From Taiwanofungus camphoratus (Eukaryota > Basidiomycota > Agaricomycetes > Polyporales > Taiwanofungaceae), in contig CP021220.1 in NCBI GenBank assembly GCA_003999685.1, positions 806,001 through 870,000 on the forward strand: DNA of 64,000 bases, in the 5' to 3' direction. This document shows, piece after piece, positions 13,420 through 54,158 of this stretch (positions are counted from its first letter, which is position 1; each line of letters begins with the position of its first letter). The translations under genes were made by a program, and so were the position numbers. A model generated the notes under the pieces. The model did not search any database. It was not told the origin of the DNA and was given only the letters and a program-made list of their open reading frames with translations.

Positions 13420-14995
13420 TCACCGTCCGCCTGACGCGTATTGCTGGGGATACTGCATGCCGTAACCCGGAGCCTGAGAGGGAGGCTGAGCTTGAGCTTG
13501 AGCTTGAGCCTGAGCCTGAGCCATAGCCATCGCCTGGGCTTGCGCCTGAGCCTGAGCTTGAGCCTGCGCCTGTGCTTGCGCCTGCGCAAGTCGTGCAGGG
13601 TCTTGCTGGCCCCCATACATTGGCGGCTGCCCATGCATTATCCCGGATGACTGTGCCTGCACGTATGCCGCCTGAGCCTGCGCTTGGGCCTGCTGTTGTT
13701 GCTGTTGCTGAATCTGTTGTTGTTGGTGCGCATGTGGATGCGGATAGTTGTAAGTGGGAGGCGCCATCGAGCCGGGAACGGGAGGAAGGGTATAAGGTAT
13801 GGCAGAGGTAAAGTAGGGATGCGAAAGAGCCTCTGCTGCAGTGATTCGCTTAGAAGGATCAAATTGAAGAAGGCGTTCGAGGAGATCAATAGCTGTGGAA
13901 GGGCATTTAGCACGTATCTAGACAATGGATTAGTTCGCAGCATACCTTGGGGTGTGGCTTTAGGGAGAACTTGCTGAAAGGGGATCTTGGGGTAACGAGG
14001 ATATTGTTTTTGAGAGGTAGGATTTTCGGTTTGCTGTCGCACATATCATCAGTTTCTTAACCAAGTGAACATCAACTTCAGACTCACGCCTTCACTTGCG
14101 ATTTTACGTAGTATACGCTCATCTGGTGTTCCGATTATGCGCATTATATGTAGGAGTTGGTCTTGGTTATCCCTTCCTCGGAAAAGCGGTACTCCAGAGA
14201 TCATCTCAGCAAAGATACATCCGCACGACCAGACATCGATTGAAGTGCTGTAAGTTCGAGAGCCCATAAGGACATCTGGGGCGCGATACCACAACGTAAC
14301 GACCTGTATGCCGTGGTTTGAATCCATATTGGTAGTCAATGAGATTCGGAACTGACCTCGTTTGAGAATGTATTGACAGGAACACCGAAGGCACGTGCAA
14401 GTCCGAAGTCACCCAGCTTCAACTCGCCCTTCCTATTAATGAGCAGATTTTGTGGTTTGAGGTCACGATGTAAAACTCTATTCTCGTGGCAAAAGGCAGT
14501 TCCTTTCAGCAGCTGATACATAAAACTCCGGACTGTGACAGGATCGAGCGCCCCCCTTTCACCATGAACGTCCATGTATCTCTTGAGATCGCGATCGCAA
14601 TACTCAAAGATGAGGACAAGTTTGGTCTCCGTGTGGATGACGTCGTAGAGTCGAACGATGTTCACATGTTTGAGTTCTTTCATTAGAGAGATTTCGCGAA
14701 TCGCAGTGGACGGAGTGCCCTCTTCTGCATCGAGATGAATTTCCTTTAGCGCCACAATCTCATTGGTGGTTCTTGATCGTCCCTGCAAGGAAAATAAATT
14801 ATGGTGTGGTTAGAGATGGTAAATGTCTGGGATACCTTGTATACTGTAGCATATGTTCCCTCTCCTAAACCGAATGTGAGTTCGGACGGTCGTAAATACA
14901 AACCCACCAAATTTACCTAGTTTCTCCAGCTATCATGGGGTTGGTATGTGAGCAGATTTCCAGAGAAAGAAGCCACTTGCCTGAACGTAATTCAT
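13420..14995 (-). CDS. PHO85: Pho85-type cyclin-dependent kinase with long Gln/Ala-rich tail
   Basis: CDK of the Pho85/CDK5 class, a Ser/Thr kinase in nutrient and phosphate signalling and cell-cycle control. The start MNYVQ (14995) splices to [15 protein letters not shown] (glycine loop). The cyclin-binding helix is [20 protein letters not shown], the Pho85 variant of PSTAIRE. The catalytic loop is [30 protein letters not shown] is the activation segment, and [10 protein letters not shown] is the P+1 loop. The kinase fold ends near [21 protein letters not shown]-terminal extension of more than 100 residues follows, dominated by poly-Gln and (Ala-Gln)n repeats and ending QYASGGR. Yeast Pho85 stops soon after the kinase fold. 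The gene is divergent from UTP5 with 365 bp between start codons. Confidence 0.94.
13484..13727 (-). repeat. Gln/Ala dipeptide and poly-Gln coding repeat in the CDK tail
   Basis: On the minus strand this is alternating CAG/CAA and GCN codons giving (AQ)n (about 13484-13590) and a run of Gln codons [12 protein letters not shown] nearer the kinase domain (about 13680-13727). Codons are mixed, so this is a selected or old peptide repeat rather than a pure DNA microsatellite. Confidence 0.85.
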
Positions 14996-21039: not shown

Positions 21040-22838
21040 ATGGCGTCCGCGCCCAGAGACCATTCCGTGTCCGCCTCCATGCCTTCCTACACCTATTCCC
21101 CCCTTCATGACATGCGCATCCCATCCTTCCTATCCTCTGCTTCCGGGTCTGCGACCTGGCTGTACACGACCGTCGCCATCATCCTCGCCCTCCTCGCCCT
21201 CGAGCAGTCCGTCTACAGGTACAAGAAGCGCCATCTCCCCGGGGACAACTGGACCATTCCCGTCATTGGCAAGTTCGCCGACTCTCTCAAGCCCAGTCTC
21301 GAGGGGTACATGAGGCAATGGGACTCGGGTGCCCTGAGCGTCGTCAGCGTTTTCAACATGTAAGTTGTCGCGCTGGTCTCTCCTTAATCGGTTGCTCAGG
21401 CGTGCAACATTGATCGACAGCTTCATCGTCATGGCCTCAACCAATGACCTTGCTCGCAAGATCCTCAACTCTCCAAGTCACGCCGAGCCGTGTCTCGTGC
21501 ACTCTGCGAAGCAGATTCTGCGCCCTGACAATTGGTACGAGACTGCTGTTTATGGACCGCGATCACAGTGATGTCTATATATTTCTTTGCAGGGTGTTCC
21601 TTTCAGGGAAGGTCCACGTCGAATACCGTCGGGTCTTGAATACACTCTTCACTCGGAAGGCTCTCGGGTACGTAACGGGAGCCGAGGCCTGATAACGCCC
21701 TGCTTAAAGCTAATCTCTCCACACTTGGCCGTTCTAGCGTGTACATCGGCATCCAAGACGCGATCACGCGCAAGCACTTCAGCAAGTGGCTCGCGGAGGC
21801 CGCGCAGGACCCGGCGCCGAAGCCGATCATGATGCTCGCGCGCGACCTCAACATGGACACGTCCCTCCGCGTCTTCTGCGGCCCGCACATCGGCGACGCG
21901 GCGGCGAGGGAGATCACGGACAAGTACTGGCTGATCACCGTCGCGCTCGAGCTCGTCAACTTCCCGCTCGCGCTCCCGGGCACGAAGGTGTACCGCGCGA
22001 TCCAGGCGCGCAAGGCGGCGCTCGCGCACCTCGAGCGCGCGGCGTGCCTGAGCAAGCGCGCGATGGCCGCGGGCGCGGAGCCGGAGTGCATGCTCGACCA
22101 GTGGGTGAGCGACCTCGCGGACCCGGAGTACAAGGGCCGGCGCGACTTTAGCGACCTCGAGATGGCGATGGTGCTCTTCTCGTTCCTCTTCGCGAGCCAG
22201 GACGCGATGAGCAGCGGGCTCATCTACGGCCTGCAGCACCTCGCGGACCACCCCGCGGTGCTCGCGCGCGTGCGCGAGGAGCAGGAGCGCGTGCGTGGCG
22301 GGGAGTACGGGAAGGCGATCACGCTCGAGATGATGGACGCGATGCCGTACCTGCGCGCGGTGGTGAAGGAGAGCCTGCGGCTGAGGCCGCCGGTGACGAT
22401 GGTGCCGTACAAGACGACGAAGGCGTTCCCGATCTCGGACGACTATACCGTGCCCGTGAACAGCATGATCATCCCGTCGTTCTACAACTCGCTGCACGAC
22501 CCGGATGCGTACCCCGACCCGGATGCGTTCCTGCCCGAGCGCTGGCTCGACCCCGAGAGCAGCGCGAACCAGAACCCGCGCAACTATCTCGTGTTTGGCA
22601 GCGGCCCGCACAAGTGCATCGGTCTGGAGTACGCGGTGATGAACATCGGATTGGTGCTTGCGGATGCTGCTGTTCTGCTGAACTGGGAGCATGTGCTGAC
22701 GGAGAAGAGCAACAAGGTTGCGTGAGTGGTGTTTCTCGTCGCCGAGGATATCGGTATTGATGTTTTGTCTGCCCCAGTATCATTGCTACGCTCTTCCCCC
22801 AGGACGGCTGCTTGGTGAAACTCAGCCCGCGCTGCTAG
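21040..22838 (+). CDS. ERG5: Sterol C-22 desaturase, cytochrome P450 CYP61 (ERG5)
   Basis: P450 that introduces the C22-23 double bond late in ergosterol synthesis, in the ER membrane. It starts [14 protein letters not shown]. An N-terminal membrane anchor ([20 protein letters not shown]) and the hinge [20 protein letters not shown] follow, a pattern typical of CYP61. The I-helix is [16 protein letters not shown], the CYP61 version of the oxygen-binding helix. ExxR is in [18 protein letters not shown] follows, and the haem loop is [10 protein letters not shown] with the Cys ligand in the exon ending near 22723. Introns lie after VVSVFN (about 21361), after PDNW, after RKALG and near the end. 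The last exon encodes [19 protein letters not shown] and ends in TAG at 22836-22838. Total about 520 residues, normal for the family. Exon four is strongly GC3-biased, suggesting high expression. Confidence 0.93.
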
Positions 22839-37796: not shown

Positions 37797-39273
37797 ATGT
37801 GGTCTTCACTCGCTTCCTTCATAGCCCTGTCGTCTTTGGCTCTTGATGTCCACGCTGCCACATACAATATGGACGCCAGTTATGTTGGCACGGACTTCCT
37901 CAACTCCTGGACACACGAGACCATATCCGATCCGACTGGTGGAAGAGTGTATGTGTGCTTACTTACTCTGACCTAGCCATTTGTCTCGTATCTGCCATTG
38001 AGGTTCGACGGTCGCATGCTGACAACGCTCTTGTTTTCAGGAATTATGTTGATCAGAGCACCGCAGTTGCCGACAATCTGACCTACGCATCGGGGGACAC
38101 GCTTGTCATGCGCTGCGACGATACCACCACTTTGTCTTCTAGCGGGGCGGGAAGAAATAGCGTTCGCTTAAAAAGCAACGCACAATACACTACTCATGTC
38201 GTCGTGTACGTTCGAGTTTGATACTCCGTGGACAGCACTCGCTCACGAAGGACTGTACAGCTTCGATATCAGGCACATGCCTCAGGGATGTGCTACTTGG
38301 CCAGCTGCTTGGGAAACTGATGATACTAACTGGCCAAGTGCCGGTGAAGTTGACATCGTAAGTACCCAGTATCGACTATCACGTGCAATACACGATACGA
38401 TTCCTATTCGCTCTCTTGCTGCGCTTCTCGTCTATAGTAAGTAGGGTAAACTACCTGTGTGAATGCACCACGTTGACATCAGTTCGTCTCTCAGGGTCGA
38501 AGGTGTCAATAGCCAGAGTCCCAACCTTGTCTCGCTGCATGTTGGCAGCTCGTGCTCGATGCCCTCTTCCCGCTCGGAACTCGGGTGAGTCACGTGATAT
38601 ATATCTCGATGGACAGGAGCTGAAGAGCATGAATGCAATGTAAAATGCAGAACCCCTCAATCCAACGATTGTGATGTCAATACTGACGGAAACTCTGGAT
38701 GTGGCGTCCAGGACCCGTCTTCCAACAGCTTCGGCCCTGACTTCAACAACGAGGGCGGAGGCTGGTATACCATGGAGCGGACGACAAGTTTCGTCAAAGT
38801 GTGGTTCTGGTCACGGAGCGACAGCACCGTCCCCTCTGATGTCTCGAGCGGTGCTGGCTCAGTAGACACTGATAACTGGGTGAGCTCCTTGTCTGTAAGC
38901 AATAAAGCAGATTACTGATGCTGTACTGTAGGGCACTCCGGCTGCATACTTCCCGAACACCGACTGCGACATCAACTCCGTATTCGGTCCCAACAATATT
39001 ATATTCGACTTGACTTTGTGTAAGTATCAAGTCGTAATTTACGCAGACCACTGTTGATTTTAATGGGTGTAGGTGGAGATTGGGCAGGCTCGTCTTCAGT
39101 CTACAGTGACGCTGGCTGTCCCGGCAGTTGCGTTGGTGAGTTTCCTTTGCATTGAGTTCGACGATGTCGTTATTGACCATCGTGTTCTGTTGATGATAGA
39201 CTACGTCAACAACAACCCCAGTGCATTCTCGGACGCATACTGGGACGTTGCAGGCGTTCGCGTGTACACGTAA
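37797..39273 (+). CDS. Glycoside hydrolase family 16 beta-glucanase (laminarinase-like), secreted
   Basis: Secreted endo-beta-1,3(4)-glucanase family of fungi, acting on cell-wall glucans. The signal peptide is MWSSLASFIALSSLALDVHA with a cut before ATYNM. Exon joins give DPTGGRVNYVDQS, NSVRLKSNAQYTTHVVV then FDIRHMPQGCATWPAAWETD, NWPSAGEVDI then VEGVNSQSPNLVSLHV, and later NDCDVNTDGNSGCGVQDP, SFVKVWFWSRSDSTVP, CGDWAGSSSVYSDAGCPG and DAYWDVAGVRVYT. The two catalytic Glu are in GEVDIVEG. Cys residues common in the family are present. The intron inside the catalytic motif has to be removed as a twin intron for the frame to hold (separate entry). All other joins are ordinary, the frame is open to the stop TAA at 39271-39273, and no other lesion is visible. 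About 310 residues. Confidence 0.9.
38358..38495 (+). other. Putative stwintron: intron nested in the acceptor site of another intron
   Basis: The outer donor GTAAGT is at 38358. An inner intron 38437-38494 (58 nt; donor GTAAGT, branch-like TTGAC, acceptor CTCTCAG) sits between the A (38436) and the G (38495) of the outer acceptor. After the inner intron is cut out, TATA joins G to make TATAG, and the outer intron (80 nt, pyrimidine-rich 3' part) can be removed. Exon DNA then reads GAC ATC then GTC GAA, giving GEVDI-VEGVN. One-step removal of 38358-38494 leaves an extra G, shifting the frame and reaching a stop six codons later. Using the AG at 38436-38437 directly gives an immediate TAA. This matches the described acceptor-splitting class of stwintrons. 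RNA proof is lacking. Confidence 0.72.
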
Positions 39274-51321: not shown

Positions 51322-51972
51322 CTAAGGAGAAGAGATGAGGGGCGCCTTCTTGACCCATTCGTTCTTCTCGAGCTCTCCTACAACGAAGGCAGCAAATCCG
51401 GCTCTCGCCAGCGTCGTCTTCGTTTTTCCGTCCCCCACATAGCCGGCAATGACATCCTTTGTGGGTTTGTTGTTCAAGAGAGGCACCCTCACAAGCGTCC
51501 ACTCCAAGTCGCCCCCCTGCGCTCTGATCGTCTCGCCGATAGCCACGATGTCGCTATACGCATTGTGGACGAACAGCTTGATACCACCGACGATGATCGA
51601 GAAGTTCAAGCTGAATCTATCGTGTTCATCCTTTGCGCTCGGGGTCGCGACCAAGATCAGGCGCTTGATATCCCGTTTCTTCAATAAGTCGATGATGGAG
51701 GCGTACGCATGCGCGATTGGGTTCCCAGCGGGGTGAGACCGTTGGGGTCCAAGGGCAGATAGGACTGCATCAACACCCTCCAGTGCCTCGGACAGTTTGT
51801 CCGTCTCGGTAAGCTCCCCTTTGATAATGGTCGCGGAAGGATTCAAAGAAATGGACTCCGGAAGTTTTTGAGGGGACCGTGCATATACGATTACGGTATG
51901 TGAGGCATGCAATGCCTCTTGAATTATTAAGATGCCAGCGGGGCCTGTCCCGCCGAGAACGAGGACGCGCAT
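51322..51972 (-). CDS. NmrA-like/atypical SDR NAD(P)-binding protein, copy A
   Basis: Intronless, 216 residues, starting MRVLVLGGTGPAG (51972), which contains the GxxGxxG dinucleotide-binding loop right at the N-terminus. Next come QEALHASHTVIVYARSPQKL (beta-2 with Arg, suggesting NADP), IKGELTETDKLSEALEGVDA (beta-3/Asp), VLSALGP and RLILVATPSAKDEHDRFSLN. RAQGGDLEWTLVRVPLLNN is the usual ending of the Rossmann part of the NAD(P)H-binding (NAD_binding_10) group. It ends KKAPLISSP. No catalytic YxxxK triad is visible, so it may be a redox sensor or an atypical reductase rather than a classical dehydrogenase. The lack of introns is unusual among its neighbours. A paralogue lies 870 bp upstream on the same strand. 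Confidence 0.85.
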   Translation of the reverse strand: MRVLVLGGTGPAGILIIQEALHASHTVIVYARSPQKLPESISLNPSATIIKGELTETDKLSEALEGVDAVLSALGPQRSHPAGNPIAHAYASIIDLLKKRDIKRLILVATPSAKDEHDRFSLNFSIIVGGIKLFVHNAYSDIVAIGETIRAQGGDLEWTLVRVPLLNNKPTKDVIAGYVGDGKTKTTLARAGFAAFVVGELEKNEWVKKAPLISSP

Positions 51973-52841
51973 CTTCGAATCAGGGTAGCGAGACTTTGAC
52001 GCTTGAGTAACACAGTCAAATTGGGACAATTACTAGTAGTTTGAAGCCTACCCTGACACTAGAGAAGTTTGAGACGGACATCAAAACCAAACCACATTGA
52101 TTACTTACAGCTGACTGCAACGCTGGGAGTCACAATGGGAGTTGAATGACACCACGAGAGCTACCAGTCCAGGCAAGTCGACGTCGTTATAAGTATTCGG
52201 AGGCAGCCTTGAGTTTACGTGTTGCCTATCACGCTATGTGACGTACTTGAGTTACACGGTGCTGCGACATAGCACGCAAGAGGACGTTCGAATTTGCCGG
52301 CGGATGGGATTTGGGTGAACAGACCTGCAGCTGAAACTCGCTAGGTCAAGACCAAGCATTTCTAGCAGTGACGCTTCCTGGAGATTCTCTATGCGCATAT
52401 CTTGATAGACTTCGCCTTACACCTCCAGTCCTAGTCTAAGAAGTAAGCAAAGGGTAGTTAGTGCGCACTGCGCAGAACAGTAAATGCGGTTAGGGAGGAT
52501 TGAACGTGGCCGCCGGCATCCGCAAATTTGCCACGTGCGGTTAATCCTGGTAGGCACATGACTCAAGGAGTGTGTCGGATTGTGTGCGTCGACCTTGTAA
52601 TCTATATTCTGTAGCTCAAATGGCAACTTGCAAATTTATTCTTATTTGGACCGCCAAGGTAATATGCCAAAACTGTGGGAACCGAGTGTTGCCGCTTTTA
52701 TCGATGCAAACTTGGGCAACAAAATACAGGTCAAGTCAAATATGTATGTTACAAAAGTACGGTACGTGTTATCGCTACAAATCTAAGACATACAAGAATG
52801 AAGGGATGTGAATTCAAATGGCTCGCTGGTGAACATGGACG
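51973..52841. other. Intergenic between the two NmrA-like paralogues
   Basis: About 870 bp holding the promoter of copy A and the 3' flank of copy B. Nothing else recognised. Confidence 0.45.
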
Positions 52842-53504
52842 TTAAGTAGAGGATATAAGAGGTGCCTTCCTGCACCACTCATTCTCCTCAAGTTCTCTGA
52901 TGACAAAGGCAGCGAAGCCCACCCTCGCCAACGTCGCCTTCGTCTTTCCGTCACCCACATAGCCCGCGATTACGCTCCTCGAGTCTCCGTCATTCAAAAG
53001 GGGTACCCTCGCAATCGTCCACTCCATGTCGCCTCCCTGCGCTCTAATGACCTCGCCGATAGCCACTACATCCTTGTACGCGTTATAAGCGAAGAGCGCG
53101 ACGCCGCTCACGAGGAAGGAGAATTGTAAGCTGAATCGGTCGTGTTCGTCCTTCATGCTGGGTGTTCCCAACGCGATCAGGCGTGTGACGCCCCGTTCCT
53201 TCATCAGTCCGATGACTGAGGCGTACGCATGTGCAAGTGGAGTATCACCGGGATGAAATGGTCCAGATTTAACAGCGGGACCGAGGGCGGATAGCACCGC
53301 GTGAACGCCATCGATCGCATGGGACAACTTGTCTGCGTCGGTGAGCTCTCCTTCGATGATGGTAACAGAGGAATGGGCGGTGATGGATTCAGGGAGCTTC
53401 TGAGGCGACCGGGCATATACGACCACATAATGTGAAGCGACCAGCGCCTCCTGGATGAGTTGGATGCCAACAGCCCCGGTCCCACCGAGGACGAGGAGAC
53501 GCAT
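52842..53504 (-). CDS. NmrA-like/atypical SDR NAD(P)-binding protein, copy B
   Basis: Intronless, 220 residues, starting MRLLVLGGTGAVG (53504). It is collinear with copy A over the whole length: IQLIQEALVASHYVVVYARS, IEGELTDADKLSHAIDGVHA, IALGTPSMKDEHDRFSLQFS, RAQGGDMEWTIARVPLLNDG and the end RKAPLISST. The differences are mostly conservative, plus a short insertion (PAVKSGPFHPGDTPLAHAYA versus PQRSHPAGNPIAHAYA). Tandem duplication in the same orientation is evident. Both frames are open and keep the GxxGxxG loop, so both are likely functional. Confidence 0.85.
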   Translation of the reverse strand: MRLLVLGGTGAVGIQLIQEALVASHYVVVYARSPQKLPESITAHSSVTIIEGELTDADKLSHAIDGVHAVLSALGPAVKSGPFHPGDTPLAHAYASVIGLMKERGVTRLIALGTPSMKDEHDRFSLQFSFLVSGVALFAYNAYKDVVAIGEVIRAQGGDMEWTIARVPLLNDGDSRSVIAGYVGDGKTKATLARVGFAAFVIRELEENEWCRKAPLISST

Positions 53505-54158
53505 CTTTGATCGGCCACGGCAATGTTTCGACGCTGAAGTTGAGTTGATCAAACCGACTGCGGTGCTACTTTCATAAACGGGCTGCTCCAGCCGGTGTAA
53601 GCGATTACAGCAGCGTCATCACAACCGATCGTATAGCCACGTGGGGATCATCACGCTGATCTTCCTGATTCAAGATTTACGTGTGAGCACTTGCCATTAC
53701 TATTCTTTGGGACATATACTATGCATAACGTTCAATGCTAGACTTTCACCCACGCATCATGGGACGCGGCTGAGTCTGCATCACATCGAATGAGCTTGTG
53801 CTATAGCTTGACGTATAGGCGGCTGCGATAATCGAAACCCTTGATGTTCCTGTATGAGGTACACTGAGATTGATGAGCAATGTCCCAGAGACACAGACTC
53901 TTGATTCTGTGTGTAAGTCCAAGTAGACTCGGCCAAAACCCGCGTCGCGATCCTGTGATCCGCTTGTAACTTCTTCGTCTGTGTACGTTTCACTACATCA
54001 TCCCGACCCACATCGATGCGAAGTATCATTGCCACACAGCACACACATCAGATAAATCTTTTTGTCCCCATTTTTGCGTATAAGAGCATTTGACGACCTG
54101 TTCTTCATTTTGTAGTTATCTCATCCGTCCTTCATTCAATTTTATCAGTGATCGACAG
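53505..54158. other. Intergenic, remnant promoter of the GH5-like pseudogene
   Basis: About 650 bp between divergent units. TATAAGAG at 54079-54086 sits 80 bp before the pseudogene ATG, comparable to the TATA spacing of the GH16 gene. Nothing else recognised. Confidence 0.4.

Follow-up and report, generated by a model that had tools for sequence, protein, structure and literature searches.

Analysis of a 64,000-nucleotide stretch of Taiwanofungus camphoratus DNA (the window) indicated that the 138-nt intervening sequence at 38358-38495, located in a Lam16A-type GH16 gene, is probably an acceptor-disrupted spliceosomal twin intron, that is, an [A2,3] stwintron. We show the anatomy of this sequence, the arithmetic of its reading frames and a frame anomaly that recurs at this junction in numerous related proteins. 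From these data we infer that two excisions would occur in the RNA and that the same solution would restore the frame in the relatives.

The GH16 gene and the sequence interrupting its catalytic motif

The features of the gene and of its intervening sequence are the following.

37797..39273, + strand: GH16 Lam16A-type glucanase gene, 8 exons, 318 aa
37797-37948, 38041-38205, 38261-38357, 38496-38584, 38651-38879, 38932-39019, 39073-39135 and 39200-39273, + strand: exons of the GH16 gene (conceptual translation)
38343..38357, + strand: GEVDI codons, first half of the catalytic motif
38358..38495, + strand: entire complex intervening sequence of 138 nt, phase 0, at the GEVDI / VEGVN boundary
38358..38436, + strand: 5' part of the outer (external) intron, with donor GTAAGT, pyrimidine tract and 3' end ...TATA
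38437..38494, + strand: inner (internal) intron, 58 nt, with donor GTAAGT and branch site GTTGAC 14 nt before CAG
38495..38495, + strand: G that would complete the outer acceptor (A38436+G38495) after removal of the inner intron
38496..38510, + strand: VEGVN codons, second half of the catalytic motif

Conceptual translation of the eight exons of gene 37797-39273 contained zero internal stops, and the encoded 318-aa protein is secreted-looking and of the Lam16A type, being homologous to Lam16A and carrying an intact ExDxxE motif in its conceptually spliced form. Family and catalytic motif are the same as in Lam16A, the GH16 laminarinase of P. chrysosporium (PDB 2CL2, 2W39), a likeness that covers the enzyme only. 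Homologue P0002 matched PDB 2cl2 with an E value of 7.5e-141, and the closest full-length homologue among the matches listed, from Rhodonia placenta, shared 77% identity with the window's protein. Identity was 67% both to the PDB chain entry P0018 and to the P. chrysosporium laminarinase P0014, which we take to be cDNA derived. A Pfam scan of the window's GH16 protein and of the published T. camphoratus protein P0007 gave zero family matches, although PF26113 is listed as precomputed for homologues. When three protein templates were aligned with splicing allowed, all six ordinary introns of the gene were found again.

Elsewhere in the window, the neighbouring similar ORFs 51322-52029 (MRVLVLGGTG...) and 52842-53615 (MRLLVLGGTG...), both on the minus strand, look like a tandem duplication of an NAD(P)-binding oxidoreductase gene, a function assigned by eye. 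A 376-aa open frame on the minus strand (21649-22779) runs antisense to a cytochrome P450-like ORF (21676-22725, plus strand) over nearly its whole length and is probably a composition effect, and the exons of a CDK-like kinase with a long Gln/Ala-rich C-terminal tail were located at 13420-14809 on the minus strand.

Exon 3 ends with GGT GAA GTT GAC ATC at 38357 and is followed by GTAAGT at 38358. Downstream, the last G of TATAG (38433-38437) is at the same time the first base of the inner donor GTAAGT at 38437, and CAG (38492-38494) is followed by a single G at 38495 and then by GTC GAA GGT (V E G) from 38496. Since the last AG upstream of exon 4 is that at 38493-38494 and exon 4 must start at 38496, a canonical intron running up to 38494 leaves an extra G and meets an early stop: excision of 38358-38494 yields GEVDI-GRRCQ-stop with one surplus G, the stop being the sixth codon, and excision to 38437 yields GEVDI-stop. 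A sequence-only reading of this DNA had placed the outer donor GTAAGT at 38358 and the inner intron 38437-38494 between the A and the G of the outer acceptor, and had foreseen an extra base with a stop six codons on after one-step excision to 38494 and an immediate TAA after use of the AG at 38436-38437; all these coordinates were correct on re-reading and both products were obtained as described.

According to the proposed mechanism, the inner intron 38437-38494, with its complete signals, would be removed first, and its ligation would join A38436 to G38495 and so create, as ...TATA-G, the outer acceptor AG. A second reaction from donor 38358 would then join 38357 to 38496 and restore GEVDI-VEGVN. 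Only this order would serve: the G of the AG at 38436-38437 is also the first base of the inner donor, and the reverse order leads to TAA. One-step removal of 38358-38494, or use of the AG at 38436-38437, would give early stops and probably message decay.

The claim of the sequence-only reading that only two consecutive excisions restore GEVDI-VEGVN was borne out by enumeration of the splicing solutions. Contiguous removal yielded the full protein only for 38358-38495 or one of its three shifted equivalents, and all four lack GT-AG borders. Of 52 single GT/GC-AG introns that keep the frame, none gave DIVEG, while two of 376 frame-keeping nested pairs did so, both by splitting the outer acceptor, with inner introns 38437-38494 (GTAAGT) or 38441-38494 (GTAGGG). 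Side-by-side intron pairs keeping GEVD and EGVNSQ numbered six, and all six added residues. We consequently rejected single introns (GC-AG introns included), pairs of introns around a microexon, nesting with a split donor and ends other than AG, none of which gave the exact motif with standard sites. Acceptor-split nesting is thus the only standard GT-AG arrangement found that restores the catalytic motif. As in the definition of an [A2,3] stwintron, a complete internal GT-AG intron lies between the A and the G of the external acceptor; by sequence and enumeration the external intron is excisable only after the internal one and the one-step product is wrong. A [D1,2] stwintron was rejected, the 5' end being ATC|GTAAGT instead of GG(T) and none of 15 donor-split solutions giving DIVEG, and so was recursive splicing at a ratchet point, the upstream-first junction being ATC|TAAGT, a stop without a donor.

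Splice signals and chance controls

A yardstick of 43 canonical introns was assembled from seven GH16 paralogues of the same genome (37 introns) and the six ordinary introns of the GH16 gene. For the paralogues, homologous proteins were aligned with a small spliced aligner and introns were kept if found with at least two of three templates; the alignments behind some of them, notably those of L045, were weak. The canonical introns measured 43-199 nt, only one of 43 exceeding 137 nt, and the inner 58 nt and the outer 80 nt are ordinary lengths. The best RYTRAY matches of these 43 canonical introns had zero, one or two mismatches in 16, 24 and three introns, respectively.

The donors and acceptors of both introns fit the U2 consensus. 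Both donors are GTAAGT and the outer intron has a strong pyrimidine tract (judged by eye), as the sequence-only reading had claimed; what it had missed is that the outer intron is without a good branch point. The branch site of the inner intron, GTTGAC, is a perfect match, while the best candidate of the outer intron within 45 nt carries two mismatches and lies 41 nt from the acceptor. As a conjecture, the second step may be slow from so weak a branch site.

Dinucleotide shuffling placed AGTAAGT in the allowed slot by chance in 58 of 20000 trials, YAGTRWGY in 446/20000 and the loosest motif, HAGTRNGY, in 1143/20000. By chance alone such an inner donor is improbable, though not extremely so.

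The same junction in paralogues and relatives

GH16 paralogues from the window's own genome were rejected as orthologues, and three of them carry the motif uninterrupted. Of 34 matches listed, eight are the window's GH16 gene itself. In the C5 copy a canonical phase 1 intron sits one codon later, and a donor right after the motif was found once in the genome with the pattern searched.

Two protein searches supplied the homologues (the best 120 of 713 and the best 120 of 1516 matches, 160 distinct), and 30 of these 160 listed proteins were without the normal ExDIxEGVN motif, P0106 being counted normal. Indels within three residues of the twin-intron junction were present in 28 of the 160, while the six other intron junctions of the GH16 gene had 2, 1, 1, 0, 1 and 3. 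Residues 123-128 and 277-283 also showed indels in at least 25 of the 160 listed homologues; no intron of the gene comes within three residues of either region, although the second is near intron 6, and with their single-residue gaps at 127 and 280-281 they look like natural length variation.

The T. camphoratus protein P0007 (AcV7_000274, a cluster of three member sequences) was 100% identical to the window's protein over 226 columns, junction excluded. Its model runs from GEVDI to SPNLV, the form that results from excision of 38358-38516, and skips VEGVNSQ with one catalytic Glu; it is also without the first 74 residues, signal peptide included. The reading GEVDIVS-VN occurs in six models, those of Fomitopsis serialis, F. 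betulina and Daedalea quercina among them. When the spliced aligner was limited to canonical sites it recovered the six other introns and chose 38362-38502 here, giving VS-VN, the equivalent of the error in several published models; with frameshifts allowed it placed one extra base at 38495 with all three templates. Two models of Steccherinum ochraceum (P0127 and P0128), counted among the 30, differ from the rest of the aberrant set in having GEVDIE... at the junction, and may represent a different anomaly, possibly a further intron arrangement.

By record names among the matches listed, the 30 aberrant models belong to 20 species, 19 of which we take to be Polyporales (as confirmed for T. camphoratus), while Cristinia sonorae is placed in Agaricales by NCBI. 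The sequence-only reading had spoken of a basidiomycete case. Its proposal of a twin intron in a basidiomycete hydrolase is supported, while the frame anomaly proved common to many Polyporales.

Two published models of Rhodofomes roseus allowed the extra base to be decoded. P0010 is in frame downstream (IEGVNSV...) and P0058 reads DRRCQF...; if P0058 was spliced at the usual donor and acceptor, both can be encoded by one DNA over 30 consecutive residues with exactly one G before the Ile codon. With A, C, T or any two-base lead the decoding extended over zero residues, and 2000 shuffled controls (first 12 residues) reached a maximum of five. The Phanerochaete sordida model P0144 translates the last part of exon 3 two bases out of frame and is back in frame at IEGVN, which requires one extra base whose identity is not fixed by the model. 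Since the Rhodofomes and P. sordida models each need an extra base, the frame problem extends to the Fomitopsis group as well as to the Phanerochaete group. In insertion-type models the residue before [IVL]EG is always codable by NNG, a weak sign, since only Met (P0010, P0022) forces the G.

Twenty-five of the listed homologues, which come from short contigs and whose only source tags are jgi, lgn or ena, were labelled transcript-like, and three were labelled cDNA or PDB derived; these labels are our own deduction, and all 28 read the normal motif. In a tree of 106 rows, built with the junction columns excluded, P0007 replaced by the query and 54 further normal rows left out, a branch with an SH-aLRT of 90 set 46 rows, all the aberrant ones among them, apart from 60 rows without any. 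The 46-row side held 30 aberrant rows including the window's gene, five normal models, eight transcript-like proteins and three from cDNA or PDB; 29 of its 34 published models were thus aberrant, versus 11/11 transcript-like, cDNA or PDB proteins that were normal and in frame. Its normal models were four of the antrodia group and one of Phlebia (P0002, P0005, P0009, P0017 and P0161); either the feature was lost there or these models were corrected. In both trees of 161 rows, the smallest side with all aberrant rows comprised 67 rows, including 23 normal models. Within it, one group of 29 rows (SH-aLRT 96) held 19 aberrant rows, one normal model and nine transcript-like, cDNA or PDB proteins, another of 15 rows (SH-aLRT 100) held nine aberrant, four normal and two transcript-like rows, and three more aberrant rows (P0015, P0031 and P0102) lay outside both groups. 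The trees therefore disagree on depth, the aberrant rows forming one side of a branch with 106 rows but not with 161. A single origin of the frame anomaly is possible, and we infer that it may be as old as the Polyporales.

If 38358-38495 were a single intron removed in one go, its 3' end would be non-canonical and lie one base beyond CAG, but the right protein would result, the donor and the branch site (14 nt before CAG) would both be perfect, and an outer branch point would be unnecessary. We nevertheless regard such a removal as unlikely: it requires a GG 3' end and leaves unexplained both the A-preceded inner donor (58/20000 shuffles) and the identity of the extra base as G in Rhodofomes, and its variant with a shifted 5' end (38357-38494) would produce DMVEG, while the eight transcript-like and the cDNA sequences of the 46-row side have DI or DV before [IVL]EG. 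DIVEG is also restored by a twin intron whose inner intron runs from 38441 to 38494 with donor GTAGGG and whose outer acceptor is A38440+G38495. GTAGGG is, however, a far poorer donor than GTAAGT, which overlaps it and starts four bases upstream, and the outer acceptor would be AAG, which makes these borders very improbable.

If GGG at 38494-38496 were an assembly error for GG, one base fewer would leave a standard intron, 38358-38494, which keeps the frame and has a good branch site. A one-base sequencing error at the junction is unlikely, because the anomaly recurs in relatives (30 of 160 listed homologues), the Rhodofomes models decode with exactly one extra G, and the published P0007 with its three member sequences avoids the canonical junction too. 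T. camphoratus assemblies made with PacBio and Illumina have a stated error rate of at most 8.68e-6 (PMC8865532), although the total length of the present assembly equals none of the four given there; we give an error at GGG hardly any weight. Slightly more credible, but still improbable, is that the published splicing 38358-38516, with which P0007 is annotated, or a frameshifted product is real, the gene decaying or its product being catalytically dead. Against this, the remainder of the gene is intact, the spliced aligner makes the same dodge simply because no canonical site fits, and the motif is intact in 11/11 members of the clade that are transcript-like or derived from cDNA or PDB. The acceptor-split stwintron with inner intron 38437-38494 remains the reading we prefer.

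Comparison with known twin introns

The twin introns described in the literature searched are ascomycete features and almost all are donor-split (PMC12403724); one summary counts 'an [A2,3] stwintron' (PMC7138796). The sequence-only reading had likewise stated that stwintrons are known mainly from Ascomycota. In the literature searched, most subscription papers being outside its scope, we recognised no basidiomycete stwintrons or nested introns. What is new here is an anomaly common to many Polyporales, with an extra G in Rhodofomes, and it fits an old [A2,3] stwintron in Basidiomycota without a [D1,2] alternative. On balance we favour the wider reading that the active-site codons of the Lam16A lineage acquired a stand-alone [A2,3] stwintron early in the history of Polyporales and kept it through speciation and gene duplication in about 20 sampled species; it would be the first basidiomycete and the first old acceptor-split stwintron in the literature searched, hidden because automatic annotation deletes or garbles a catalytic residue.

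If this is true, the acceptor-split type can arise and persist in basidiomycetes without a donor-split alternative, apparently across an order, and the gene is a natural setting in which to ask if, and by what means, a 3' splice site created by a preceding splicing reaction is used by the spliceosome. The 30 published GH16 models from 20 species that are aberrant at the catalytic site affect CAZyme annotation and cloning.

The closest known systems are the [D1,2]/[A2,3] stwintrons of the alternative oxidase gene of Helminthosporium solani and of a drug-pump gene in some Pezizomycotina (PMC5639578), in which, as proposed here, an external acceptor split A/G by a complete internal intron is restored in two consecutive U2 reactions. 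In that paper, the [A2,3] form is an alternative to a [D1,2] form, which requires a 5' GG, whereas the window has C|GTAAGT and zero donor-split solutions restoring the motif; the genes concerned are ascomycete, whereas the window's gene is from a basidiomycete. One-step splicing leaves one G here, as does one-step missplicing of [D1,2] stwintrons (PMC12403724). The [D2,3] stwintron of bioDA and the [D5,6] stwintron of rtnA are described as conserved over whole classes (PMC5639578, PMC6616335); these are nested introns kept over large taxonomic distances, as the window's putative twin intron would be, and in both cases canonical excision in one step disrupts the reading frame or the protein. 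They are, however, donor-split, ascomycete and reported as experimentally verified, whereas the putative one of the window is acceptor-split, basidiomycete and known from sequence. Ratchet-point recursive splicing (PMC8605326) likewise juxtaposes an acceptor and a donor and removes an intron in several steps; the acceptor and donor of the window's intervening sequence, in contrast, share one G, so that upstream-first splicing destroys the donor and sets TAA next to the exon.
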